64,000 bases of DNA. Origin: Candidatus Cloacimonadota bacterium (lineage in GTDB: Bacteria > Muiribacteriota > UBA6191). The stretch is taken from contig NVVD01000015.1 in assembly GCA_002402105.1 (NCBI GenBank), positions 6,724 to 70,723 on the forward strand, read 5' to 3'. A program made the position numbers and the translations under genes. The notes beneath the pieces are model-generated. The model was not told the DNA's origin. It did not search any database and saw only the letters and a list, made by a program, of their open reading frames with translations. Positions 462 to 27,081 of the stretch are shown piece after piece (the first letter of the stretch is position 1; each line of letters begins with the position of its first letter).

Positions 462-1484
462 TTAAGCTGGAGTAAGTGTATTATCTATATCAATTTCTAA
501 ACTTTCATTTATATTAATTACCAAGTTTTCAGTAATTTCTTTTATTTCAGTATTATCTTCATTTTTACTTAGTGTAGAATCTAACTCATCACTTTGATGC
601 AATACATCACTTATTGCTTTATTATATTCATTTTCAAATATTTTTAAATCAGGCTCATTTAATTCGGAATATACATAAGGCACTTCCATATGATCTGAAT
701 GAACTTTTATAAATTCTTTACAGAAGTTAAATAATTGATGTTCATCTTTTGATTTATTTAATAAGCTGTATTTCAATTCTATAAAATATTGATTCTTACC
801 TTCGATTAAATTTATGAAAATAATAGGGTATGGTTGTCCGGCTAAAACTCCTTTTAGTGGAGTCATTTCATCAAAATGAAAGTTGATTTTAATGTCATTT
901 TTTAAGGTGGTATTACTCTTATCGGAATAAAATTGTAACATTACCCATGCTAACTCAACTGAAATTATAAACTTTGTTGGATCAGAAAATTTACCTAGTC
1001 TAAATCCAGTATCAATCTGTGGTCCAATAAAATCTATTGGATTTTTAACAACTATAGAATTTGTTATGGGGAATGAAGCTATCCATGCAGTACCTTTAGA
1101 AGAAAGTTCTGTAATCTCTGGTTTATCTTTTCTTCCTTCTTTATAGTATTTACATGAATCAATAGCCTTTAGAAAAGCATATACGTAAAAAATAGCATGA
1201 GATTCTTTTTGTATTGCTTGTAGGTCGATATAAAATAAAATTTCATCACCTAAGTACTTCCAAATTTTAACAAATTCTTTTGAGATCTTAAATTCTTGTT
1301 TATTTAGAATATTTGTTTTATTTAGAGTATGTATTTCATCATAGAAGTGACTAGGGAAGTCAATATAAAACTGCTTTATAGTTGGTAGCCACTCTCTTGA
1401 CTCGTATTTATTTTTAAATGCTGTAGATCCTACAATATCCACGCTTAAAATTAAGTAAGTGCTTGAGAGTGGAAAAATCTTCAT
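462..1484 (-). CDS. Class III nucleotide cyclase-like protein
   Basis: The 340-residue protein has the layout of a class III nucleotidyl cyclase. The first metal-binding Asp is D16 in SVDIVGST, the second is D80 in KYLGDEILF, and a later block IGPQIDTGFRLG (about 153-164) corresponds to the family G-x-x-V-N-x-A-x-R-L region, with Asp at the usual Asn and R162 kept. About 100 C-terminal residues (after about 235) are acidic and unassigned. There is no membrane segment or receptor domain. Its start overlaps the end of the ImmA/IrrE gene by 4 bases, so the two are probably translated together. Soluble stand-alone cyclases in defence islands include the Pycsar cyclases; membership, and the cyclic nucleotide made, are inference. 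The D-for-N change leaves activity open. Confidence 0.75.
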   Translation of the reverse strand: MKIFPLSSTYLILSVDIVGSTAFKNKYESREWLPTIKQFYIDFPSHFYDEIHTLNKTNILNKQEFKISKEFVKIWKYLGDEILFYIDLQAIQKESHAIFYVYAFLKAIDSCKYYKEGRKDKPEITELSSKGTAWIASFPITNSIVVKNPIDFIGPQIDTGFRLGKFSDPTKFIISVELAWVMLQFYSDKSNTTLKNDIKINFHFDEMTPLKGVLAGQPYPIIFINLIEGKNQYFIELKYSLLNKSKDEHQLFNFCKEFIKVHSDHMEVPYVYSELNEPDLKIFENEYNKAISDVLHQSDELDSTLSKNEDNTEIKEITENLVININESLEIDIDNTLTPA

Positions 1485-1993
1485 AGCCTAAGTGAGTCTA
1501 TTCTAACATTCATTGCGACAATTGAAACATCAAAAATATCAGCTAACTCACATACGCTTTTATCTTGATTAAATAGTTCTTCTAATTCATTTTTAGGCAT
1601 TAAAAGTTCTGCAGCAAATCTATTGGCTTCTTTTTCTATTTGGCTAGTTCCATATCTTCTAGCATGAATCTTTATTTGTCCTGATTTAGAATGTAAAATA
1701 AAGTGTCCTAATTCATGTGCAAGAGTAAAACGGTTTCTAAGGTCATATAATTTATCTTTTAAGAAAATCTTAAAGTCTCTAACACCATCTACATACAAAG
1801 AATCTGTTTCAGCAAATTTAGCATCCCATCCAGCAGTATCAGGATGATGAACTATTCCTCCTAATTTATTAATAATGTCTTTTTCAATATTTCCACCTAC
1901 TTTAAATTTAGTAGAACGGATAAGTATTTCAGCAATTTCTCTGATAAACTCCATAGAGCAATGAAGTGGTTTAGGGTCAATATAATTAGTCAT
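1481..1993 (-). CDS. ImmA/IrrE-family metallopeptidase
   Basis: This 170-residue protein carries the zinc-protease motif HELGH at residues 93-97, followed by FILH and, about 25 residues later, KEANRFAAELLMP, which supplies the third ligand and the family hallmark. It has no N-terminal XRE domain, unlike many relatives. ImmA/IrrE proteins usually cleave or inactivate a repressor, as ImmA does in ICEBs1 and IrrE-dependent DdrO cleavage does in Deinococcus. It is first in a two-gene operon with the downstream cyclase-like gene (4-base overlap), so a cyclic nucleotide could control it or its product could control the cyclase. No XRE substrate gene is adjacent; the nearest XRE genes lie 7-8 kb away. 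Confidence 0.85.
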   Translation of the reverse strand: MTNYIDPKPLHCSMEFIREIAEILIRSTKFKVGGNIEKDIINKLGGIVHHPDTAGWDAKFAETDSLYVDGVRDFKIFLKDKLYDLRNRFTLAHELGHFILHSKSGQIKIHARRYGTSQIEKEANRFAAELLMPKNELEELFNQDKSVCELADIFDVSIVAMNVRIDSLRL

Positions 1994-2178
1994 TTTTACT
2001 CCTTTATATTAAGGTTCAATGATAAATTTCGACTATAAGGTTATAATTTTAACGTTTAGAAAGTATATTTTTAGTAGTGGGTGATATACACTAGTATACT
2101 GGAAATACAACTAATAAGTCAAAAATTTGGTGAAGTATATATTAGAATGTATAAAGTTACAATTGAGTTTTGAAAATT

Positions 2179-2472
2179 ATGAAAGATTTAACAAATAAAT
2201 ATATTGGAAACTTTGAAGAGATACCAAAAGACTTATTTGATTTGGTTAAGACTCCTTTATTAGATTTATATAACAAAGTAGTTGAAGATTTTCCTTTAAA
2301 AGGGAAACTTGAAATAGTTTATTTCTATGCAGAAGATGAGCATATTTTTAATGTTTTTATTAAAACAGGCCTTCCAATTGGTGACTTTCATAAATTTGAT
2401 GAGTTACTTTTTAGTGACTGGTATTTTGACTTCTCACAAGAGAATAACATGATAGGTTATTTTCTTGCCTAG
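2179..2472 (+). CDS. Small acidic protein of unknown function
   Basis: A 97-residue acidic protein starting MKDLTNKYIGNFEE. I choose ATG 2179 over the upstream TTG at 2170; neither has a convincing ribosome binding site. It contains a KGKLEIVYFYAEDEHIFNVF stretch typical of a small alpha/beta fold, but I do not recognise the family. It is transcribed alone between two minus-strand defence-like units, divergent from the ImmA/IrrE gene and convergent with the HEPN-like gene. Immunity or anti-restriction roles are possible but unsupported. Confidence 0.55.
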   Translation: MKDLTNKYIGNFEEIPKDLFDLVKTPLLDLYNKVVEDFPLKGKLEIVYFYAEDEHIFNVFIKTGLPIGDFHKFDELLFSDWYFDFSQENNMIGYFLA

Positions 2473-2482
2473 TATGTATATT

Positions 2483-3208
2483 TTAATTTTGATGATTATT
2501 TACATTTAAAAAATTGATTAGATAGTCAAACTCATCGGTATTAAAAAGATGTTTAAAAATTTCGTTTAAAGTTTTTTTTGCTGAATTAACTAAAGATATT
2601 TCATCAAAGGTATTGAAATCTAAAATATCTGCTTTAAGATGAATTCTATTTCTTAATTCTCGTAAACTATTCACTTCTACTAAAATGGAATCTGGAAATA
2701 GAGTAGTTTTATTTTGAATGATAGATATCATGTCAATAAGTTTTGTTGAGAATATTTGTTCTGGTTTTTTATTTTTGATAAAAACTTCAAGATTTACTTT
2801 GTAGTTTTCTGTAGGCTTTAAGTCACTTGTTTTTGGATGAAGAATTTTAAAAAATTTTAAATTATTTTGGAATAACTCTTGGGAGATGGAACCTCCTTTA
2901 AATTCACAACCTTTTAGTTTATCAATAGGTGTAAACCCCTTTTTTATGTGTAAATCCTTATCTTTGATTATATAATCAAAGATGGCTTCAATTATTATTA
3001 TAATCGTTAAAATATAATATTGATTGTGAACAGTTTGAATTGAAAAATGATTATTATTATAGACCACAGTGTTGAGATATTCTAAATATTGACATTTATA
3101 TCCTATATTAGATGTTAGTCCGTAAATTTCTTCAGAAGAATAGTGTTCATTATTTTTTAAATAAGTGCGTAAAAATTTTCTCCATGTTAAGACATTTGAT
3201 ATGTTCAT
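2483..3208 (-). CDS. HEPN-like protein of unknown function
   Basis: A 241-residue protein with mostly helical composition. Residues 182-191 (LRELRNRIHL) resemble the catalytic helix of HEPN proteins, in which an Arg followed by 4-6 residues and a His forms an RNase site. The spacing here is R183-x6-H190 or R186-x3-H190, so the match is imperfect. The region 66-80 is very Ile-rich and hydrophobic. It lies 80 bases downstream of, and in the same direction as, the ABC-3C ATPase gene and may be a fourth cargo protein of that unit. HEPN assignment is inference; the protein could equally be an unknown regulator. Confidence 0.5.
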   Translation of the reverse strand: MNISNVLTWRKFLRTYLKNNEHYSSEEIYGLTSNIGYKCQYLEYLNTVVYNNNHFSIQTVHNQYYILTIIIIIEAIFDYIIKDKDLHIKKGFTPIDKLKGCEFKGGSISQELFQNNLKFFKILHPKTSDLKPTENYKVNLEVFIKNKKPEQIFSTKLIDMISIIQNKTTLFPDSILVEVNSLRELRNRIHLKADILDFNTFDEISLVNSAKKTLNEIFKHLFNTDEFDYLINFLNVNNHQN

Positions 3209-3288
3209 AATTACATTACTTTCTTCTCAATATAATCCAAAGCCCCTTGTTCAGTAGCTGTGATTTTTTTAGTGGGTATAAATTAATA

Positions 3289-5004
3289 CTAAATCTCTTG
3301 GTAGTGTATGCCTAGAAACTTATTTGTTTTAGTAAGTGATGCTACGGCATAATCGTCTAAATCAAACATTAATTCTTCAAGATTTTTCTCTGATAATTTA
3401 TCACGATTAAGAGTTAGAATGTACTGTTTATCCTGCATTAAATTACTATTTTCGTACAGGTAATTAAGACTCTGTACTAAGGTGTCTTGATCCACATGAA
3501 ATAAGTTATCATGTATCAAAAGTTTAGGGTGAAGTTCTTGCGAATTTGGGGATAATAATAATCCTACATCATATAGGAATACTTGCTCACGATTGATACT
3601 ATGTCCACCATCTTCAAAAGTTCTAAAATCATAAAATACGATTTGTGCTTTGTCTTTAACTTCAACTTTGAGAGATGATTTTTCATTTCCCATAATATAC
3701 TTATGTAGTTTTAATATTTGACTTTCTAAAGAAAGAATATTAGGTTCTGCATCTGTAACTAACAAATCAAATAGAGAGGTTTGATTTGTTTTTTCTATTT
3801 TTTTAGACTTCATATCATCATCAGCTTTAGTATATAGCTCCATAAACCCAGCTAAGAGAGATTGTTCTTCTACTTTAGCTTGATAAGCTGATATGGTTAC
3901 TTTTAGGTTTTTTAATACTCCATGTTTATCTATAATTATCAATTTCTTTTTATACTCTTTATCAAGTGTTTTTAACTGATTTTCAATTGATTTGATTTCT
4001 TTAGATAAGGAGTTTTTTTTATTGTCAAATAAGCTGTTTTTAAACAAGTCAATTTTCTTTTTAAAGGATATAACTTCTTGCAAGTCCTTTTTAATAAAGT
4101 CTCCTAAACCATTTTTAAACTGATTGTAAATTTCTTCAAGTTCATTCTCGTCTATATAGTTATCTCCATCAAAAAAAGAAATTTTGGAAAACTCGTGTTT
4201 AAGTACTTTATTTCTTGAGCGAAGGCATTCAATTTCAGTTTCAAGTTTAATAATGTCGTCTCGAACAATGCTATTACCTTCAAAATTTTCTAATAGATTG
4301 ATTTCATTTTCAATTGCAGTTATTTGTCCTTTTAGATCATTTAATTCAGCACTTGCATTTTCAAAAGTATTCTTTGTTATGCTTTCAATATCCTTTTTTG
4401 CTTTAGATTTAATCTTCTTTAAATCAGAAATTTCTTTATAAATTAGCTTAATTTCGTTATATAGTTTTGTGTCTATTCCAAGAAGATAAAGGTGAGGAGA
4501 ATAATTTTCTGGAATGTTTTTATCTGTATCATAATATTTGATTATCGATTTGAATTCAGACCTTTCATCTCGTGCTAATAATCCAAGCATTTCTCTAAAT
4601 GAAGGTGCTTTACTATAATCTAAAGTACCAAACATTAAGTTTGATAAATATTTATTTGCTTCATCGATGTTATAATCTTCATAAACTACATCATCTATTA
4701 TCATTGTGGGGTTCTTTTGATTTTCAATGGTTCTTTTAATAGTTATATTTTTATTTTTGATAGTAAAGTCTAGACAAACTTCTGTATCTTGAGCAAAAGA
4801 ACTACTAGGTATTTTACTCAATCGACTTTCAGAATACCTCTTTAACAAACAAAAGTTGATAAATTCAATACAAATAGATTTGCCAACACCATTTGTCTTT
4901 TTTGATTCAAAACTTGTTTCTCCAAAGATAATATTTACTCCAGAAGTAAAGCTTATTGGGGTGAAGACTTGGGGGGTGCTGTATAGTTTTAAAATTTTCA
5001 TCAT
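3289..5004 (-). CDS. DUF2326-type ATPase of an ABC-3C system
   Basis: A 571-residue SMC/RecN-like ATPase. The N-terminus has a split P-loop (FGETSFESKKTNGVGKSIC, about 28-46) typical of the DUF2326 family, the middle (about 190-370) is long coiled coil, and the C-terminal half contains LLIHDN as a Walker B-like strand. The start overlaps the stop of the middle-component gene by ATGA at 5004-5001. Three-component ABC systems combine such an ATPase with a small middle component and an effector; they are predicted conflict systems that sense invading nucleoprotein. Here it would be the sensor/motor of the operon 6206-3289. Family assignment is by recognised motif and gene order. Confidence 0.85.
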   Translation of the reverse strand: MMKILKLYSTPQVFTPISFTSGVNIIFGETSFESKKTNGVGKSICIEFINFCLLKRYSESRLSKIPSSSFAQDTEVCLDFTIKNKNITIKRTIENQKNPTMIIDDVVYEDYNIDEANKYLSNLMFGTLDYSKAPSFREMLGLLARDERSEFKSIIKYYDTDKNIPENYSPHLYLLGIDTKLYNEIKLIYKEISDLKKIKSKAKKDIESITKNTFENASAELNDLKGQITAIENEINLLENFEGNSIVRDDIIKLETEIECLRSRNKVLKHEFSKISFFDGDNYIDENELEEIYNQFKNGLGDFIKKDLQEVISFKKKIDLFKNSLFDNKKNSLSKEIKSIENQLKTLDKEYKKKLIIIDKHGVLKNLKVTISAYQAKVEEQSLLAGFMELYTKADDDMKSKKIEKTNQTSLFDLLVTDAEPNILSLESQILKLHKYIMGNEKSSLKVEVKDKAQIVFYDFRTFEDGGHSINREQVFLYDVGLLLSPNSQELHPKLLIHDNLFHVDQDTLVQSLNYLYENSNLMQDKQYILTLNRDKLSEKNLEELMFDLDDYAVASLTKTNKFLGIHYQEI

Positions 5005-5246
5005 TTTTTAATTAGGTAAGATGCTTCAAAATCAATTAAATCAACAGAATATAAAAATATTAATCCGTAATATAGTGAACTTACTGTTAATTTACTGTCA
5101 TTTTTATTGGCTTTTTGTATTTTGGTAATTACATCGAAAATACTAATCTTTGTTATACTTTTATCTTGTATAGCTCTTAATATTTTTGCCCCTATATATG
5201 GAGCAGATTTTAATAAATTCTCATCTTTTGAAAATAGTTTTGCCAT
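5001..5246 (-). CDS. ABC-3C middle component (MC6-like)
   Basis: An 81-residue helical protein placed between the SMEK and ATPase genes, 6 bases after the former and overlapping the latter by 4. Its pattern (MAKLFSKDENLLKSAPYIGA at the start, then a winged-helix-like segment ending in SSLYYGLIFLYSVDLIDFE) fits the short middle components that bridge ATPase and effector in ABC three-component systems. The winged-helix reading comes from the final part, which resembles the 'fall-through' helix and wing of such proteins. Function is inferred from position as much as from sequence. Confidence 0.75.
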   Translation of the reverse strand: MAKLFSKDENLLKSAPYIGAKILRAIQDKSITKISIFDVITKIQKANKNDSKLTVSSLYYGLIFLYSVDLIDFEASYLIKK

Positions 5247-5252
5247 AGTAAA

Positions 5253-6206
5253 TTATACCTTATTAGGGAAAACATTGCACTTTATAATCTCTTCTATTAG
5301 AAAATATTCTATAGCTGTTTTGTCATATTCAAAATTATGATTTGTGATATCAGAAACACATTGATTGACTAAACTATTTAGTGCCTCTTTTGGATTGCCA
5401 TTAAATCTATTTAGAACAAAATCTGTATGAGATTTTAAAAAAGAGGCGACCTTTTTAAGTTGAATTGGTCGAATATCACTTTCATTTAAAATTTGTTTAT
5501 AGATGTATCCGTATATTTCTACTAAATCTAAATATCTTGTGGTTAAATAATTAGAATATTCTTTAAATCTATGGTTGATTTTTCTATCAGGGTCAGGACT
5601 CTCTAAGTAGTTGGCATCATTATCAAAGTCAGCTTCATAATTACTTAAATAGTCAATAATTGCAGTAATTGTGTGAACTTCTTTTGATATTCGCTCATTT
5701 GTATTGTGCTTTAACTCTTTGTTTAAAAAAGAAGATATTTTTTCTAAAAAATGGATATCTTTATGTTTTATTTTTTTAAGAAAAGTGGTTTTATCCCAAA
5801 TGTCATTTTTTGTGTCTATTTGAAATATATTTGATTCACCAATATAGTTATCTTTATGTGAAGATTTTTTTACAATATTGTAAATTATGAGTTTATCATA
5901 GTCTTTATAAAGTTCTTTTTCTATAAACTTGTTAACCGTTTTTTTAGTTTTCTTTAAATTTGAATCTGCTGTGATTTGAAAAGCGATTCTATTAACTTTG
6001 TCTCCTAAATCAATAGAGGCAGTGTTGGATGCAATTTCATTCATATTTTTTAATTCATACCCAAAACATAGGTTTAATAGTTGGCAATAAAAATCTTCTG
6101 CAGCAGTATTTAGATTAAGTAAATTGATTGATCCGCAAAGTTCAATTTTAGTAGTTAATATTGATAATCCAGATGTAATTGACTTCCAATGATCTTCTCT
6201 ATACAT
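5253..6206 (-). CDS. SMEK-domain effector of an ABC-3C system
   Basis: A protein of 317 residues from ATG 6206, which has a GAGGT ribosome binding site; a longer frame reaches 6272 but lacks one. The first 170 residues match the SMEK type: an amphipathic start (YREDHWKSITSGLSIL), then AAEDFYCQLLNLCFGYEL, and ASIDLGDKVNRIAFQIT. The Asp followed by Gln-x-Thr is reminiscent of a PD-(D/E)xK nuclease core with a Q variant, so a nuclease role is plausible but not shown. The C-terminal half (about 170-317) is helical and may contact the middle component. It is the first gene of the ABC-3C operon and the likely effector. Confidence 0.75.
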   Translation of the reverse strand: MYREDHWKSITSGLSILTTKIELCGSINLLNLNTAAEDFYCQLLNLCFGYELKNMNEIASNTASIDLGDKVNRIAFQITADSNLKKTKKTVNKFIEKELYKDYDKLIIYNIVKKSSHKDNYIGESNIFQIDTKNDIWDKTTFLKKIKHKDIHFLEKISSFLNKELKHNTNERISKEVHTITAIIDYLSNYEADFDNDANYLESPDPDRKINHRFKEYSNYLTTRYLDLVEIYGYIYKQILNESDIRPIQLKKVASFLKSHTDFVLNRFNGNPKEALNSLVNQCVSDITNHNFEYDKTAIEYFLIEEIIKCNVFPNKV

Positions 6207-6342
6207 AAATTGACCTCGAATTGGTCTAAGGTGTTTGAAATTATTGATTGTTGGATAACACGTAGCCATCACGACGTTAGATTAGCTTGACTAGACAGCA
6301 AATTAATTAACGGTAGTATATTAACAATATATAAATGAAATA

Positions 6343-7878: not shown

Positions 7879-8955
7879 ATGATTGGTAAAGATGGAATTT
7901 TAGAAGTTAAAAACTTTAGGGATATAAATATAAAAGATTCTTTTTTTGATAGCTTAAAAGAGGACTATGAAGAGTTTGAGTCATGGTTTAAAAAAAAATC
8001 AGATAAGGAAGCTTTTATTTTTGAAAGTGAAAGCGATCTTCTTGCTTTTTTATATTTGAAGGTAGAGTCAGAAGAAGTTACAGATATTGAGCCAAATTTA
8101 CCAAAAAAGAATAGATTAAAGATTGGTACTTTTAAAATAGAGCCTCATGGTACTCGACTTGGTGAAAGATTTATTAAGAAAATGTTTGATTATGCTCTTG
8201 ATAAAGGTCTTGATGAAGCTTATGTAACAATTTTTAAAAAGCATGATTATTTAATTAAGCTATTTGAAAAGTATGGATTTAAACATTGTGGTACTAAAAC
8301 TACTGATAATGGTATTGAAGAAGTATATATTAAATGTTTTTCAGATGAAAATAATGATGTACTTATTGATTATCCTGTTATGCCATTTAAGAAAAATGAA
8401 ACTAATATATATCTAATGCCAATTGACCCACCTTATCACACTAGATTATTTCCAGATTCAATTTTAAATAATGAAGATTCATCGATAGTAGATGATTGCT
8501 CACATACAAATAGTATTCATAAAGTATATATTGCTTTTAGAGATGATATTGGGCTTAAAAGAGGAGACATATTAGCTGTTTATAGAACAAAAAAAGGATT
8601 GGATGGACCAGCAAAATATAAAAGTGTTGTTACATCATTTTGTGTGGTCGAAGAAGTAAAAGAAAAACAAAACTTTGTAAGTGAAACAGATTTTATTGAT
8701 TATTGTAGAAATTATAGTATTTTTACTGTTGAAGAGTTAGAAAAATGGTATAAAACTAAGCAGAGATTTACAGCTATAAAGATGACTTATAATTTAGCTC
8801 TTAAAAAAAGAGTTATTAGAGAGTTTTTATTAGAAGAAGTTGGTATATCTGAAAATGATCGTATTAATTTTTTAAAAATAAGTCCTAATCAATTTTGGCA
8901 AATTAAACTAAAAGGAATGGTTGATGATGAACGTACTGTTATCTATAAAACCTGA
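7879..8955 (+). CDS. GNAT acetyltransferase-like protein
   Basis: A 358-residue protein starting at ATG 7879 after AAAGGAGATATTCA. Residues 1-155 are GNAT-like: the stretch IEPHGTRLGERFIKKMFDYA corresponds to the acetyl-CoA-binding region and AYVTIFKKHDYLIKLFEKYGFKHCG (given here in two blocks, AYVTIFKKHDY and LFEKYGFKHCG) to the typical last strand and helix. The C-terminal half (about 165-358) with FPDSI, IHKVYIAF and LKRGDILAVYR resembles a PUA/EVE-like RNA-binding fold. The ASCH gene overlaps its 3' end by 32 bases. The pair may modify or bind RNA or a translation component; cassette-borne toxin-antitoxin or defence function is possible. Confidence 0.65.
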   Translation: MIGKDGILEVKNFRDINIKDSFFDSLKEDYEEFESWFKKKSDKEAFIFESESDLLAFLYLKVESEEVTDIEPNLPKKNRLKIGTFKIEPHGTRLGERFIKKMFDYALDKGLDEAYVTIFKKHDYLIKLFEKYGFKHCGTKTTDNGIEEVYIKCFSDENNDVLIDYPVMPFKKNETNIYLMPIDPPYHTRLFPDSILNNEDSSIVDDCSHTNSIHKVYIAFRDDIGLKRGDILAVYRTKKGLDGPAKYKSVVTSFCVVEEVKEKQNFVSETDFIDYCRNYSIFTVEELEKWYKTKQRFTAIKMTYNLALKKRVIREFLLEEVGISENDRINFLKISPNQFWQIKLKGMVDDERTVIYKT

Positions 8956-9304
8956 ATATGTTGAAAGAATATTTTCAGGTTCAAAAAAATATGAATATCG
9001 AAAAGCAATTTTTAAAAAACAAAATATAAAAAAAGTAATTGTATATTCAACAATGCCAGTTGGCAAAATTGTTGGAGAGTTTGAAATAGAAAGAATTATT
9101 GAAGATTCTCCCAATAACATTTGGGAACAAACTCAAGAGTATTCAGGAGTTGATAAATCTTTTTTTGATTATTATTTTAATGATCGTGATAAAGGCTATG
9201 CAATTAAAATTTCAAAAGTAAAACTATATGATAAACCTATTGATCCAAAGCTTAAATATGAAAAGTTTACTGCTCCACAATCATTTAAGTATTTAGCAGC
9301 TTAA
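8924..9304 (+). CDS. ASCH/PUA-like domain protein
   Basis: A 126-residue protein whose start, LLSIKPEYVERIFSGSKKYE followed by YRK, is the signature of the ASCH superfamily (a PUA-like fold thought to bind RNA). I choose ATG 8924, 7 bases after AAGGA; ATG 8927 is as possible. It overlaps the GNAT gene by 32 bases and is followed by a strong terminator. Small ASCH proteins include N4-acetylcytidine amidohydrolase YqfB, but I cannot show activity here. The coupling with a GNAT protein suggests opposed or cooperating acetyl chemistry, which is inference. Confidence 0.75.
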   Translation: MMNVLLSIKPEYVERIFSGSKKYEYRKAIFKKQNIKKVIVYSTMPVGKIVGEFEIERIIEDSPNNIWEQTQEYSGVDKSFFDYYFNDRDKGYAIKISKVKLYDKPIDPKLKYEKFTAPQSFKYLAA

Positions 9305-9335: not shown

Positions 9336-9369
9336 AAATCAGCATCCCCAAAAAGGTGCTGATTTTTTT
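9336..9369 (+). terminator. Terminator of the GNAT-ASCH operon
   Basis: A 9-bp stem (AAATCAGCA at 9336-9344 with its complement at 9357-9365), a 12-base loop and a run of T. It immediately precedes the right 26-bp inverted repeat. Confidence 0.85.
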
Positions 9370-9396: not shown

Positions 9397-9427
9397 TCTT
9401 AAAGAAGGGATTTAAAATGTATATAGA

Positions 9428-9634
9428 TTATTCATCATCAGGAATGTACTCCATGATGTCGCCAGGTTGGCAATTTAGGGCTTTGCAGATTTTTTCAATG
9501 GTATCGGTTCGGACTTTTTCACCGTTTCTCATTTTGGATAAAACTCTCCATCCTAAGCCACGATCAACTAAATATTTCTTTTGTAAATCAAGCTCTATAA
9601 GCATGATCCATAATTTTTTATAACTAATAGACAT
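9428..9634 (-). CDS. XRE-family regulator, copy 1
   Basis: A 68-residue Cro/C1-type helix-turn-helix protein starting MSISYKKLW, ending in NCQPGDIMEYIPDDE. The recognition region is RTDTIEKICKALNCQPGDI, typical of the small YozG-like XRE group. It is a paralogue of the 10083-10292 protein and, like it, is divergent from a structured leader and a replication-initiator-like gene. It probably represses the promoters in between. The upstream region has an inverted repeat (AATAACTT at 9712-9719 with AAGTTATT nearby) that could be its operator. Confidence 0.85.
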   Translation of the reverse strand: MSISYKKLWIMLIELDLQKKYLVDRGLGWRVLSKMRNGEKVRTDTIEKICKALNCQPGDIMEYIPDDE

Positions 9635-9802
9635 ACTAACTAATCGACTTTTTTAGGTGAAATAATAACAAATAATAGGCTAAAAATCACATCAAATAAA
9701 CAGATAAAGATTAATAACTTGCTTATAGTAAAGTTATTCGTTAATATAATGTCAACACTTTACGATAAGAAAGATAACATTACTTTTTGTAAGAGTTAAA
9801 AA

Positions 9803-9884
9803 GGCACACCATGCAAAATAAAAAAATAAATATTAATAGGAATTTCGACAGGGACAGTGGTGTGCCTCCTGTCGAAGTTCCTAT
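9803..9884 (+). promoter_or_regulatory. Interleaved-helix leader of initiator copy 1
   Basis: Two complementary pairs interleave: A (9803-9811, GGCACACCA) pairs with A' (9858-9866), and B (9836-9852) pairs with B' (9868-9884) over 17 bp with one G-U. The order A-B-A'-B' allows a pseudoknot or two exclusive hairpins. A short ORF (9811-9909) runs through it and overlaps the initiator ATG. B' ends 8 bases before the TTTGGAGAA ribosome binding site, so the structure can control access to it. Confidence 0.7.
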
Positions 9885-9909
9885 TTTTTGTATTTGGAGA
9901 AAATCATGA
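9811..9909 (+). CDS. Leader peptide of initiator copy 1
   Basis: A 32-codon ORF that begins in helix A, reads through helices B, A' and B', and ends with TGA overlapping the initiator ATG (ATGA at 9906-9909). An AAAAAGG sequence precedes its ATG by 6 bases. It ends in IFCIWRKS, the same last residues as the leader of copy 2 (FCIWRKS), although the middle parts differ. This suggests that translation of the leader is coupled to initiator translation, as with RepY-RepZ of IncI plasmids; that parallel is inference. Confidence 0.6.
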   Translation: MQNKKININRNFDRDSGVPPVEVPIFCIWRKS

Positions 9910-10133
9910 GTTCATTTTTAATGATTCCAAAAGATTTTTTTAATAGTCCCATTTGGAAGGGAAAAAGGAAGTTTTCTAAGGCTGAATGTTTGATTGATAT
10001 TCTACATGAAATTAGGTATTCAAAAGAGACTGAAAGAGTGATGATTGCTGAGACTTTCATCAAGTGTGAACAAGGTCAAAGTTTAAATATTGTTAGGAAT
10101 GTATTCCATGATATCACCAGGTTGGCAATTTAA
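9906..10133 (+). pseudogene. Truncated replication-initiator-like gene, copy 1
   Basis: From ATG 9906 the first about 61 residues match the start of the complete protein at 10554 (MSSFLMIPKDFF against MSSFLMISKDFF, then FSKAEC, IDIL, RYS and CEQGQSLN against CKQGQTLN). The homology stops near 10089, and the frame then runs into the antisense XRE gene and ends at 10133. It is thus a tandem-duplication remnant in which the second XRE unit replaces the 3' part. A 75-residue product could still be made; it would keep half of the winged-helix domain and could act as a dominant-negative regulator. Confidence 0.75.
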
Positions 10134-10292
10134 AGCTTCACAGAACTTTTCTATAGTATCTGTACGAATACTTAGCCCTTTTTTCATATTGGCTAATATC
10201 GTACGACTTACGCCAGAAGATGCAACCAAATCATTTTGGTTCATATCTAAATCTATTAATAATTTCCACAGTTTTTTATATGACATACTCAT
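10083..10292 (-). CDS. XRE-family regulator, copy 2
   Basis: A 69-residue helix-turn-helix protein from ATG 10292, the start that aligns with copy 1 (MSMSYKKLW against MSISYKKLW); a longer frame to 10319 has no support. The HTH covers MNQNDLVASSGVSRTILANM and the C-terminus is NCQPGDIMEYIPNNI. It is divergent from the complete initiator gene and its leader. With about half of its residues conserved relative to copy 1, the two repressors probably recognise different operators, giving separate control of the two units. Confidence 0.85.
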   Translation of the reverse strand: MSMSYKKLWKLLIDLDMNQNDLVASSGVSRTILANMKKGLSIRTDTIEKFCEALNCQPGDIMEYIPNNI

Positions 10293-10353
10293 ACTAATAA
10301 TGTCGGAAAAACTGGACAAAAAGTTAATAATTCATCAAAAAAGTAAAAAACTA

Positions 10354-10381
10354 TTGACATTGTGTCGAATAAAAGTAAATA
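10354..10381 (+). promoter_or_regulatory. Promoter of initiator copy 2
   Basis: A perfect TTGACA at 10354-10359 and TAAATA at 10376-10381 are separated by 16 bases. The predicted transcript starts about 50 bases before the leader structure. The divergent XRE start is about 60 bases upstream, so this is the expected repressor target. Confidence 0.6.
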
Positions 10382-10438
10382 ATAATGTTCACAAAGGAAA
10401 TAGTTTTGTGCCTAAAGCACATAATTAATTACCAGAAA

Positions 10439-10532
10439 GCACGACAATGCAAAAAAATAAAAATATAGAAATATCAATTAGTAGGGACTCAATTTGTGTT
10501 TGTCATTGTCGTGCGCACATTTTGAGCCCCTA
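10439..10532 (+). promoter_or_regulatory. Interleaved-helix leader of initiator copy 2
   Basis: Same A-B-A'-B' order as at 9803-9884, with different sequence. A (10439-10449, GCACGACAATG) pairs perfectly over 11 bp with A' (10504-10514). B (10482-10498) pairs in 14 of 17 positions with B' (10516-10532). The helices are kept although the arms differ from copy 1, which amounts to compensatory change and argues that the pairing is functional. Helix A contains the start codon of the leader ORF, and B' ends 11 bases before the initiator GGAG. Confidence 0.72.
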
Positions 10533-10557
10533 TTTTTGTATTTGGAGAAAATCATGA
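10447..10557 (+). CDS. Leader peptide of initiator copy 2
   Basis: A 36-codon ORF whose ATG is the last three bases of helix A and whose TGA overlaps the initiator ATG (ATGA at 10554-10557). It is Cys-rich in the middle (ICVCHC) and ends YFCIWRKS like the copy 1 leader. The conserved end reflects the shared initiator ribosome binding site region, so it need not be peptide-level selection. A ribosome translating it would open A' and B-B'. Coupled translation with the initiator is inferred. Confidence 0.6.
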   Translation: MQKNKNIEISISRDSICVCHCRAHILSPYFCIWRKS

Positions 10558-11489
10558 GTTCATTTTTAATGATATCTAAAGATTTTTTTGATAATCCTGT
10601 TTGGACAGAGAAGCGAAGATTCTCTAAAGCTGAATGTTGGATTGATATTTTAAATCAGATTAGATATTCAGAAAAAGATAAGAACATCTTTATCGGAAAC
10701 AGCCTAATAACCTGTAAACAAGGGCAAACTTTAAACAGTTTAGGCACTTGGTCTAAGCGTTGGGGAATGTCAAAAAGTAGTGTTTGGCGATTGCTCGGAC
10801 TGTTTGCTAACTTGAACATGATAAAAGTTGAAAATGTAGAAAAAACGACACGCTTAACAGTGCTTGAACACAAGTGTTACGCAATTCAACGAAACGCAGA
10901 TGAAACGCACGTGGAACAGTTCAGAAACGGACATGAAACATTTGTGGAAACAAAAGAAGAAGGGAGAAAGAAGGATGAAAGAAAGATAGAAAAAAATAAA
11001 ACAAAAAAAGAAATTCTACCCCTAGCCCCTCAAGGGGAAAATCAATTTGATTCTCTTCCTTCTAAAATTATTTCAATAAATGAAAATAAAAAATTCTCAA
11101 ATCAATCAGATAAAAAATCACTTATCGAAAAAAGAGTTGATGAGATAAAAACTCAATTTGGAACCAATCGAGTAAATCAAGCCTATGAGCTTTTTGAAAA
11201 GTTTTTAGAAATTGGAAAGACTCGGTCAGATCACAAAGAGCTTCAATCCATCAAAAACATTTGTTCGATTCTTAAAAAGAAATTAGCAAGTTTTGAAGAT
11301 TTAAAAAAATCAATCGAAAACTACAAATCTTCTAAATACGAAAAAATTGAAGAGGGCTATATTTTCTCATGTGCCAATTTCTTTGGAAAGTCAGAAGAGT
11401 ACACAAACTACACAAGTGATCTAGCAAACGTTGACCCAATGGCTGAGTTTTACAGGCAAAAGCGAGAGGAGCTTTTAAATGATGGATAA
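10554..11489 (+). CDS. Replication-initiator-like winged-helix protein
   Basis: A 311-residue protein from ATG 10554 (TTTGGAGAAAATC before it). Residues 1-105 fit the winged-helix domain of phage and plasmid replisome organisers: KRRFSKAECWIDIL, CKQGQTLNSLGTWSKRWGMS with KSSVWRLL, and ANLNMIKVE. A charged linker (about 120-190) leads to a helical C-terminal region that may recruit the helicase, as in DnaD-like proteins. It is coupled to the upstream leader ORF by ATGA and overlaps the next gene by 11 bases. Role as the element's replication initiator is inferred; no iterons were identified. Confidence 0.65.
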   Translation: MSSFLMISKDFFDNPVWTEKRRFSKAECWIDILNQIRYSEKDKNIFIGNSLITCKQGQTLNSLGTWSKRWGMSKSSVWRLLGLFANLNMIKVENVEKTTRLTVLEHKCYAIQRNADETHVEQFRNGHETFVETKEEGRKKDERKIEKNKTKKEILPLAPQGENQFDSLPSKIISINENKKFSNQSDKKSLIEKRVDEIKTQFGTNRVNQAYELFEKFLEIGKTRSDHKELQSIKNICSILKKKLASFEDLKKSIENYKSSKYEKIEEGYIFSCANFFGKSEEYTNYTSDLANVDPMAEFYRQKREELLNDG

Positions 11490-12157: not shown

Positions 12158-13096
12158 ATGTTAGAAGTAAAAAACTGTAAGCCATTAGATAAAAAAGCCG
12201 TAGCAAGTTTAATTTTAGAGTTTGTAAATAGAAAATCATATTCTAAAGATACAAAAAAGACATATCAAAAGCAGATACAAAAGTTTTTCAAATATAGCTC
12301 TTCTAAAAAGCTACAAAAGCCAAGAAGAAAAGATATTTTAGACTATTTAGATATGTTGATTTATCAGGGTAGAGCAGCAACTTACATTAACAATTTATTA
12401 ACAGCATTAAAAAACTTTTTCAGATATTTAGATTTCATCAAACGGTATGAGGATATAACAAAAATGATAGATAGAATCAAAAGTGATAAGGGACATAAAA
12501 GAGAAGCATTAGATCCAATTCAATTTAAAAGAATCATGAAAGCTATGCCAATGGGTGAGTATGAAGTTTTAAAAAGAAACTACGCAATCTTAAACACTCT
12601 TGGTCGTACAGGCATGAGGAGAAACGGACTTAAAGAGTTAAAAGTAAAACATCTATTCTCAAAACAATCACCAGATGAAACCGTAAATTGGTATTTACTT
12701 ATAAAATTAAAAGGTTATCAAACAGCCGAGCACCAAATTTTACTAACTTCAAATGCATTAAAAGTGATTCAAGATTATTTAGAGCTTAAAAGCCATAAAA
12801 AACCAAATGATTATTTATTCTCAAGACCAGACGGAATCCAATTACACGAAGATTTTATATCAAAACTATTTAAAAAATCAGCAAGAAGAGTAGGAATAGA
12901 TAGACGATCAATCACTTGCCACAGCTTAAGACACATGTTTGCAACTATAGCCAAAGAAAATAATATCCCAATAGAGGATATTTCAGACGTCTTAGGTCAT
13001 GCCGAGTTATCCACAACATCAGACATCTATGTTCATCGTGGAGAAGAAAACAAAAACAAAGCTTTAGAGTCAGTAGATAGGGTATTGTGGGAATGA
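12158..13096 (+). CDS. Tyrosine recombinase of the XerC/XerD type
   Basis: From ATG 12158 (TAAGG upstream) the protein is 312 residues. An N-terminal SAM-like core-binding domain covers about 10-110 (YSKDTKKTYQKQIQKFFKY). The catalytic domain shows the Arg in GRTGMRRNGLKEL, the box CHSLRHMFAT, LGHAELSTT and the nucleophile Tyr in SDIYVH. It is distinct from the integrase at 14966. It may resolve dimers of the element, invert the cassette or act in excision. It is followed by a small membrane/coiled-coil gene with an ATGA overlap. Confidence 0.85.
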   Translation: MLEVKNCKPLDKKAVASLILEFVNRKSYSKDTKKTYQKQIQKFFKYSSSKKLQKPRRKDILDYLDMLIYQGRAATYINNLLTALKNFFRYLDFIKRYEDITKMIDRIKSDKGHKREALDPIQFKRIMKAMPMGEYEVLKRNYAILNTLGRTGMRRNGLKELKVKHLFSKQSPDETVNWYLLIKLKGYQTAEHQILLTSNALKVIQDYLELKSHKKPNDYLFSRPDGIQLHEDFISKLFKKSARRVGIDRRSITCHSLRHMFATIAKENNIPIEDISDVLGHAELSTTSDIYVHRGEENKNKALESVDRVLWE

Positions 13097-13299: not shown

Positions 13300-13306
13300 T
13301 AAAACC

Positions 13307-13394
13307 CAGTAAATAAGCTAAAGTCGGAATTTCCGAATTTATTAAATTATTTCCTTTTTTGAGGGTAATAATAAGCAATCTTTATGCCAGAAAG
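13307..13394. repeat. Leader repeat, copy 1
   Basis: About 88 bases that recur at 13823-13911. Both start CAGTAAATAA, contain a hairpin (TCGGAATTTCCGA here) and CCTTTTTTGAGGGTAAT, which forms a second stem, and end in AGCAATCTT plus CAGAAAG. Here an 8-codon unit, ATG 13384 to TGA 13407, overlaps the next ATG as ATGA, so a very short leader peptide may be coupled to the 13404 gene. Each copy precedes a small gene; a shared cis-regulatory RNA is likely. Confidence 0.65.
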
Positions 13395-13805: not shown

Positions 13806-13822
13806 AAAGTATTTAAAAAAAA

Positions 13823-13911
13823 CAGTAAATAAAGCAAAGTCGGAAAAACCGATTTTATTAAATTGTTACCTTTTTTGAGGGTAATATTAGGCAATCTTAT
13901 TGTCAGAAAGA
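13823..13911. repeat. Leader repeat, copy 2
   Basis: Second copy of the 13307-13394 unit, roughly 80 per cent identical by eye. The hairpin is kept with a changed loop (TCGGAAAAACCGA), and the second stem is stronger (TTACC with GGTAA around TTTTTTGA). In place of the ATG leader there is TTGTCAGAAAGAAGGTGA, whose TGA overlaps a GTG at 13914. It precedes the damaged paralogue at 13926. Confidence 0.65.
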
Positions 13912-14965: not shown

Positions 14966-15991
14966 ATGTCTGAAAGTCTAATCAAAATGGCAAACATAAC
15001 AAAAGTTAAAATATCGAATAAAAAAGTTAGTTACAGAGTCAGAGTAAGAATGTCTGGTAAGAGCATAAATAAAACATTTAGAACAATGGGAGAAGCAAGA
15101 AACTATGTTTTAGCAATAGAGAATGAACTTGAATCTGGTAAGTATGCTGATTATAAAAGTAATATGTTAATTGATGATTTATTTGAAAAATATATAAGTG
15201 AAGTTTTACCACTATTAAAGCAGCCAGAAAAATATATTTATCCTTTTAAATTGTTTTCTGAAAAGATAGGGTTTTTAGAGTTAAAAGATGTTACTCTTCC
15301 TTTATTGTTAGATGTAAGACAAAAAATGATGGTAGAAAATACAATCAGCTTTTCAACAATCAATAGATATTTTGCAACAGTTGGTCGTAGTTTTAGTATG
15401 GCTGTAGAATGGGAGTTTCTTAATAAAAATATTTTTCTAAAATTAACTAAATTAAAAGAACCAAAAGGAAGAGTTCGTTTCTTATCAGATGAAGAAAGAG
15501 AAAGACTACTATTTGAATGTAAAAAAACAGACTATCTATATTTATTAGTAATCTTAGCTTTAACAACTGGAGCAAGAAAAAATGAGATAATGTCTTTAAA
15601 ATGGGAGCAAGTAATATTTCGTGAAAATATTATTGTATTAGAAGATACTAAAAACGGAGAACGTAGATCCTTACCCTTGTGTGACTCATCAAAGGCATTA
15701 TTATTGGAGTGGAAATCTAAAGAAATTGATAAAGTAAAAGTGTTTCACATTAAATCAGCTAGAGGTGCATGGAGAACAGCAATTAAAAAAGCAGAGATAG
15801 AAAACTTTAAGTTTCATGATCTAAGGCATTGTTGTGCTTCATACTTGGCAATGCAAGGAGTTTCATTACTTGCAATTGCCGATATCTTGGGGCATAAAAG
15901 CTTAGATATGGTTAAAAGATATGCACATCTATCTAATGACTATAAAAGTAAAATCATACATACATTAGGTGACTATTTATTTCCTAAGTAG
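14966..15991 (+). CDS. Tyrosine integrase of the element
   Basis: A 341-residue phage-type integrase. Residues 12-60 form an arm-binding-like start (KVSYRVRVRMSGKSINKTFR), 60-160 the core-binding domain and 165-341 the catalytic domain: Arg in TTGARKNEIMSLKW, then FHDLRHCCASYL, ILGHKS and the nucleophile Tyr in VKRYAHLS. The first ATG is kept (AAGG 8 bases upstream); an alternative ATG lies 21 bases downstream. It is followed by a terminator and, 340 bases on, by the tRNA 3' half, the expected attachment site. It should catalyse insertion of the element and, with a directionality factor, excision. Confidence 0.93.
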   Translation: MSESLIKMANITKVKISNKKVSYRVRVRMSGKSINKTFRTMGEARNYVLAIENELESGKYADYKSNMLIDDLFEKYISEVLPLLKQPEKYIYPFKLFSEKIGFLELKDVTLPLLLDVRQKMMVENTISFSTINRYFATVGRSFSMAVEWEFLNKNIFLKLTKLKEPKGRVRFLSDEERERLLFECKKTDYLYLLVILALTTGARKNEIMSLKWEQVIFRENIIVLEDTKNGERRSLPLCDSSKALLLEWKSKEIDKVKVFHIKSARGAWRTAIKKAEIENFKFHDLRHCCASYLAMQGVSLLAIADILGHKSLDMVKRYAHLSNDYKSKIIHTLGDYLFPK

Positions 15992-26931: not shown

Positions 26932-26936
26932 ATTTT

Positions 26937-27081
26937 TCACCTGTGGTATGCGTAATGAAATTCTGTTTTGAGGCCTACATAATTTTGCAAGGAAAGTTGA
27001 TTTCGAACTTGTTTGAGTCGCTTATCTGCCTGTTTTTAAACAGGCCTGCAAAACCTTTTCATACGGTATTACGGGTTTTTT
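26937..27081 (+). ncRNA. Structured RNA upstream of the BMC operon
   Basis: A long closing stem pairs 26939-26960 with 27057-27076 (about 20 pairs with G-U and small bulges). Inside it, 26965-26976 (GTTTTGAGGCCT) pairs with 27042-27054 through one bulge. The right arm of the closing stem is followed by TTTTTT, a terminator-like end 57 bases before the shell gene start. An alternative hairpin, GCCTGTTT-TT-AAACAGGC at 27028-27045, competes with the inner stem. The rod shape and promoter suit a free RNA of about 145 nt, such as a 6S-like RNA; the position suits a riboswitch or attenuator of the BMC operon. No known riboswitch motif was recognised. Confidence 0.6.

Follow-up and report, generated by a model that had tools for sequence, protein, structure and literature searches.

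The locus described here raised the question of how a replication-type gene is controlled when it is preceded, in two tandem versions, by a short leader ORF and two interleaved pairs of complementary sequences. The locus lies on a mobile DNA element in an uncultured bacterium; the window, i.e. the whole stretch of DNA analysed, comprised 64 kb. Two tandem units were found at 9417-11489, each composed of an XRE gene (minus strand), an intergenic promoter region, a leader ORF and the start of a DnaD-like gene. We give an even chance to the reading that each unit is a cis-acting RNA switch, which would combine antitermination dependent on leader translation with ATGA coupling, the start of the leader being gated by one of the two helices (A-A').

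Genes of the two units

The genes and the promoter candidate of the units were positioned as follows:

9428-9634, minus strand: XRE1, small Cro/C1-type (HTH_26) regulator of unit 1 (PF13443, E=1.2e-16)
9811-9909, plus strand: leader ORF 1, 32 aa, MQNKKININRNFDRDSGVPPVEVPIFCIWRKS, the only open frame of three
9906-10133, plus strand: initiator of unit 1, truncated; its codons 1-63 are homologous to those of the intact gene (59% identity)
10083-10286, minus strand: XRE2, the HTH_26 regulator belonging to unit 2 and oriented divergently from leader 2 (PF13443, E=1.1e-18)
10354-10383, plus strand: sigma-70-like promoter of unit 2 from the promoter scan, TTGACA-18-AATAAT (11/12)
10447-10557, plus strand: leader ORF 2, 36 aa, MQKNKNIEISISRDSICVCHCRAHILSPYFCIWRKS, the only open frame of three
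10554-11489, plus strand: intact initiator-like gene, 311 aa, N-terminal half resembling DnaD-like phage helicase loaders

The N-terminal winged-helix part of the intact gene product is, judging from its profile matches, DnaD-like (replication helicase-loader): PHROG 2514 was matched over residues 4-156 (E=3.8e-12) and PHROG 186 with E=1.1e-6, and distant phage replisome organizers were matched as well. 'Initiator' is a fair label, with a probable role in starting replication. No match to the IncFII/RepZ (RepA) family was obtained in the Pfam/NCBIfam search, nor any between the N-terminal profile and solved structures, and the fold prediction (mean pLDDT 48) was of too low confidence to add support. 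Related initiators (L002, L004, L006, L007) displayed exchangeable N-terminal domains and a conserved C-terminal half.

Both units had been expected, in the sequence-only reading, to control initiators. Only unit 2 drives an intact gene, whereas unit 1 heads a 63-codon remnant, whose frame runs after codon 63 into the antisense of the XRE2 3' end, in frame. A transcript of unit 1 would continue across XRE2, in antisense, and enter leader 2.

A divergent XRE gene was indeed present beside each leader, and this layout suggests repression. XRE1 and XRE2 were 58% identical, with near-identical C-termini and a divergent recognition-helix region, so that the units probably differ in operator as well as in their RNA arms; no operator was identified. 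Sigma-70-like promoter matches were not enriched over shuffles, and the minus-strand promoter scan likewise displayed no enrichment, with one weak match at 10070-10041.

The stop codon of the leader overlapped the next ATG as ATGA in both copies (9906-9909 and 10554-10557), as had been proposed. Leader length differed by 12 nt between copies, in frame. The chance of an open leader frame being about 0.15 per copy, translation of the leader is modestly supported. At the junction, one stretch was shared entirely by the units:

9885-9925, plus strand: 41-nt block identical in both units, with the U-tract, the GGAGA SD, the ATGA overlap and the first six codons

All 41 nt of this block were identical, whereas the DNA of initiator codons 8-63 was 67% identical. 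This points either to the U-tract, the SD and the start being under strong constraint or to a local gene conversion; the latter counts against the switch.

Interleaved helices

Two interleaved helices were distinguished in each leader by sequence and helix scans:

9802-9812, plus strand: helix A of copy 1, covering the SD (AGG) and the first two bases of the leader AUG
9835-9852, plus strand: helix B of copy 1
9857-9867, plus strand: helix A' of copy 1, inside the B-B' loop
9868-9885, plus strand: helix B' of copy 1, terminator-like, with the U-tract directly 3'
10439-10449, plus strand: helix A of copy 2, including the leader AUG
10482-10498, plus strand: helix B of copy 2, pairing with B' at 14 of 17 positions
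10504-10514, plus strand: helix A' of copy 2, inside the B-B' loop, A-A' having 11 pairs
10516-10532, plus strand: helix B' of copy 2, terminator-like, followed by U5

The A-B-A'-B' order and the common design built from different sequences had been recognised correctly. Pair counts were as claimed for copy 2 (11, and 14 of 17), but copy 1 displayed 11 and 18 pairs instead of the claimed 9 and 17, the last pair of A-A' and one pair of B-B' being G.U; the energy of its B-B' helix was about -26.4 to -27.2 kcal/mol. The leader start had been placed at the end of helix A, which holds fully for copy 2, where the whole AUG lies inside A, and only partly for copy 1. In both copies A' makes up most of the exposed B-B' hairpin loop; its partner, the leader start, lies 44-54 nt 5' of A'.

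None of 2000 dinucleotide shuffles of each leader reached the observed helices. Under strict settings copy 1 was the only interleaved motif on both strands of the window, and shuffled windows contained none. Counting against the switch, copy 2 has an imperfect B stem (three mismatches), and its folding was only z=-1.75 below shuffles.

The arms were said to differ between copies while remaining complementary, and this proved correct, self-pairing being far above cross-pairing. Duplex energies for the A arms were -19.1 and -16.8 kcal/mol (self) against -5.1 and -8.2 kcal/mol (cross), and for the B arms -27.2 and -18.2 against -5.0 and -10.0. The A arms differed at about half of their positions and remained fully complementary, as read from the sequence. 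Comparison of the B arms between copies revealed five pairs changed on both sides, one changed on one side and three broken; 14 of 500 shuffles were as good in double changes. The two units were mutually orthogonal in both arms.

Repeats of this kind could also act at the DNA level, as protein-binding or replication-origin repeats whose RNA folding would be incidental. Origins often lie near replication-type genes, and the gene encodes a replication-type protein. The repeats are, however, not iterons; their arms share no sequence between units and their spacing varies, whereas the leader frame and the placement of the SD and U-tract are kept, and we consider a DNA-level role very improbable.

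Terminator-like character of B-B'

Helix B-B' had been thought to adjoin the RBS of the initiator. This was not the case: B' stops 21-22 nt short of the ATG and about 9 nt short of the SD, which is therefore not masked. B-B' is instead directly followed by U6 (copy 1) or U5 (copy 2), ahead of the regulated gene, and together with this U-tract it looks like an intrinsic terminator. Control of transcription is accordingly at least as likely as control of translation, and transcription would be expected to terminate at the U-tract. For a terminator, the B-B' loop is long (15-17 nt), which counts against this assignment; it is also why a simple terminator scan (loops up to 8) omitted B-B'.

A covariance search for co-varying homologues had been put forward as a check. 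With a model of B-B' and its tail, 40 genomes of the phylum yielded, besides the two copies, weak matches only; of seven inspected, about five were ordinary intrinsic terminators, and there was no third homologue among them.

The same stretch might be read as a purely translational switch, in which B-B' and its A-rich/U-rich extension would lower translation of the initiator until translation of the leader opens them, with no premature termination. An ATGA overlap is what one typically sees in translational coupling. Behind the leader start lies an A-rich stretch with 80-92% complementarity to the U-tract; the closed fold thereby extends as far as the border of the initiator SD, and the initiator start was predicted to be partly paired in this fold. 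Against this stand the distance between B' and the ATG, the prediction that the SD is mostly unpaired (0.55-0.68), and the U-tract right after the stem, which is a terminator feature; a switch without termination is thus rated as rather unlikely.

Folding order and proposed mechanism

Folding of the growing transcript, computed with assumed start sites, followed the same order in both copies. Before A' was made, the leader start was partly open in both. Once A' was out, A-A' formed with a probability of 0.96-0.99, and B-B' took over, with 0.98 (copy 1) and 0.81 (copy 2), when B' and the bases behind it had been added; the leader AUG was shut most tightly in copy 2. In nested-structure prediction B-B' displaced A-A', a calculation that is unable to represent a pseudoknot with both helices. 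A pseudoknot check (Dirks-Pierce style sum) favoured the presence of both helices (-44.5 vs -36.9 and -33.2 vs -28.0 kcal/mol). Short joints (4-5 nt and 0-1 nt) make this pseudoknot tight, so that coexistence and alternation of A-A' and B-B' are both possible.

Under the antitermination reading, the initiator would be held behind three locks. The divergent XRE protein would repress the promoter, as the gene layout suggests. Thermodynamic prediction then indicates that the RBS of the leader may be free only until A' emerges, after which A-A' would shut it. A timely ribosome would run through B, A' and B', no B-B' hairpin would be present while the polymerase passes the U-tract, and the ribosome, ending at the ATGA overlap, could reinitiate on the initiator. 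Should no ribosome arrive, A-A' would form and then B-B', in succession or joined in a pseudoknot; transcription would stop at U5-6 and no initiator would be made. The net output would be a low, leader-dependent synthesis of the initiator. The earlier proposal that reading the leader switches the helices is hence supported as a general idea, but not in its detail that the initiator RBS would be unmasked.

The position of A' in a hairpin loop, complementary to the leader start, equally invites a trans-acting RNA in the style of P4 and P1 immunity: A', exposed on a hairpin RNA released by termination or processing, would silence the leader start of other transcripts, and the units would represent copy-number or immunity groups. 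In its favour, the units are mutually orthogonal with respect to both arms, their XRE recognition helices are different, and P4 has a circuit of this type, as does Gifsy-1 in related form (PMC4825925). A and A' are, however, carried by one molecule, so that pairing in cis should prevail; neither a promoter of its own nor a processing site was established for the small RNA, which is putative. Such an RNA is judged decidedly unlikely.

We also regard as quite improbable the broader view of a self-contained modular cassette for immunity or copy number. The loop of the terminator hairpin would there be antisense to its own leader start, and ended transcripts would silence new ones. The two tandem versions, orthogonal in RNA arms and XRE specificity, would serve one to drive the initiator and the other as decoy or second input, and they would have been acquired with the candidate-defence cassette described below.

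A riboswitch was rejected: no conserved unpaired core was present and Rfam was negative. At gathering score, 6S RNA was the only Rfam match in the window, with nothing credible at 9600-10700.

If the cis-acting switch is right, a leader ORF was coupled to a replication gene through crossed helices independently of the enterobacterial plasmids and outside them, and this coupling was combined with a terminator and a phage-type repressor. Two natural orthogonal versions lie side by side, and the roles of pairing, leader translation and repressor are separable by simple swaps.

Comparison with known systems

By analogy, the units appear to work like RepY-RepZ, IsrK or the P4 immunity RNA, while being members of none of these; this suggests a new combination within a known general type of translation-controlled on/off switch.

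In RepY-RepZ, the initiator RBS is activated when a hairpin loop pairs with a site directly 5' of it. The parallel drawn earlier with this system applies at the functional level only, the pairing partner of the loop being here the leader's own start and not a site by the initiator RBS. Leader-coupled control of the initiator is documented for I-complex plasmids (PMC10286972, PMC10724649). RepY-RepZ and RepB-RepA (I-complex, IncL/M) share with the proposed mechanism a leader ORF translated to permit expression of the initiator, a hairpin loop engaged in long-range pairing, and coupling by start-stop overlap. They differ in that their copy number is set by an antisense RNA (RNAI), of which no sign was found here beyond one weak minus-strand promoter match. 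The units, for their part, have a loop whose partner is the start of the leader, a hairpin with a U-tract behind it, a DnaD-like initiator and a divergent XRE gene. Since the units lack defining features of the I-complex (family of the initiator, place of the loop's partner), they were set apart from this group.

Translation of the leader governs a terminator hairpin in leader-peptide attenuators (tna, tet(M)-type, trp), as would be the case here; in contrast to these, no stall codons or ligand logic were recognised, and there is an extra helix, A-A', over the start of the leader itself. Differing but self-complementary versions, comparable to those of the two units, occur in P1/P7 c4-icd-ant. 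There and in the P4 CI RNA (P4 seqA/CI; PMC4825925), complementary leader segments decide on continuation into lytic or replication genes, as may hold here, but through a separate processed RNA acting in trans, whereas both partners lie in one leader in the units. In Gifsy-1 IsrK-orf45-anrP (PMC4825925), too, the leader transcript contains a terminator, the regulated gene is coupled to a small ORF upstream of it, and alternative structures close this ORF. The IsrK terminator, however, precedes the leader ORF, short IsrK regulates in trans, the target is an antirepressor and the sequences are unrelated.

Distribution of the module

Viral contigs were searched with the initiator, with its N-terminal alignment and with the exact 23-nt pattern of the conserved block, and displayed no homologue. 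Among bacterial genomes only the sister species was recovered, without the module, and DNA and pattern searches of the genome itself and its close relatives detected no third copy. With no third homologue in the collections searched, the covariation rests on two copies, and the evidence base is these two copies from one genome. The neighbourhoods of 42 related XRE genes in viral contigs and of five DnaD-like genes were also scanned for interleaved helices, and nothing comparable adjoined these genes.

Interleaved hits on four contigs (L019, L036, L039, L014) were located elsewhere, away from the XRE gene, and were of a different design. Three viral-labelled contigs (L019, L036 and L039; minus strand, at about 8086, 4387 and 5269, respectively) carried a leader-like stretch with interleaved helices, GCCGGATG / CATCCGGC around GTTACGAAA / TTTCGTAAC, in which the first arm ends in ATG and T-runs come after. 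This stretch was unrelated in sequence to the units and is possibly an attenuator.

Element and neighbourhood

A syntenic element, with the same gene order as the element of the window, was present in a MAG of a sister species (Candidatus Cloacimonadota, JAGSHD01; L008/L090). It carried, in this order, M78 peptidase, DUF2326, SMEK, a small putative DNA-binding gene, a gene called here 'MSDSLA' and the initiator, followed by gene 2, a tyrosine recombinase and a second integrase. The 'MSDSLA' gene stood directly before the initiator, an adjacency common to the other three relatives too (L002, L006, L007). In the window the two genes are separated by 2.9 kb, comprising PDC-M11A, PDC-M11B, a terminator and both units:

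7879-9304: PDC-M11A and PDC-M11B, two overlapping genes of PADLOC candidate defence families (E=1e-134 and E=5e-51)
9336-9365, plus strand: intrinsic terminator (terminator scan) at the end of the inserted candidate-defence cassette and 5' of both units

PDC-M11B carried an ASCH domain. Among the elements compared, PDC-M11A/B were found between the 'MSDSLA' gene and the initiator only in that of the window. Judging from this gene order, the candidate-defence cassette interrupts the usual operon of the element. From the layout, a cargo insertion would have separated the initiator from the promoter it normally uses; the units would have come in together with this cargo or later, and may supply a new promoter.

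The orthologous element of the sister species lacked the XRE-leader unit, and unit 1 heads no more than 63 initiator codons; unit 1, or perhaps both units, could then be a functionless, decaying leftover of recombination. This is extremely unlikely, as copy 1 has the better-paired helices and a 75-codon frame free of stops, and self-complementarity was kept despite deep divergence.

A second likely defence cluster was located at 462-6272 (minus strand), with genes for an M78-type peptidase, DUF2326 (PDC-M68B) and SMEK-domain proteins. It was also present in the sister element, where DUF2326 and SMEK were 80-90% identical.

One end of the element displayed two tyrosine recombinases (12158-13096 and 14966-15991). 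Both were kept in three elements of sister genomes, and the first one in a fourth relative, whose contig ends there. Further to the right, one RNA gene was recognised:

26935-27081: 6S RNA gene (Rfam match)

The sequence right of the element is hence probably chromosomal. Downstream of a tyrosine recombinase, between small ORFs, a 94-nt direct repeat (13301-13394 and 13817-13910, 83% identical) included short inverted repeats and may be a terminator or a recombination site.
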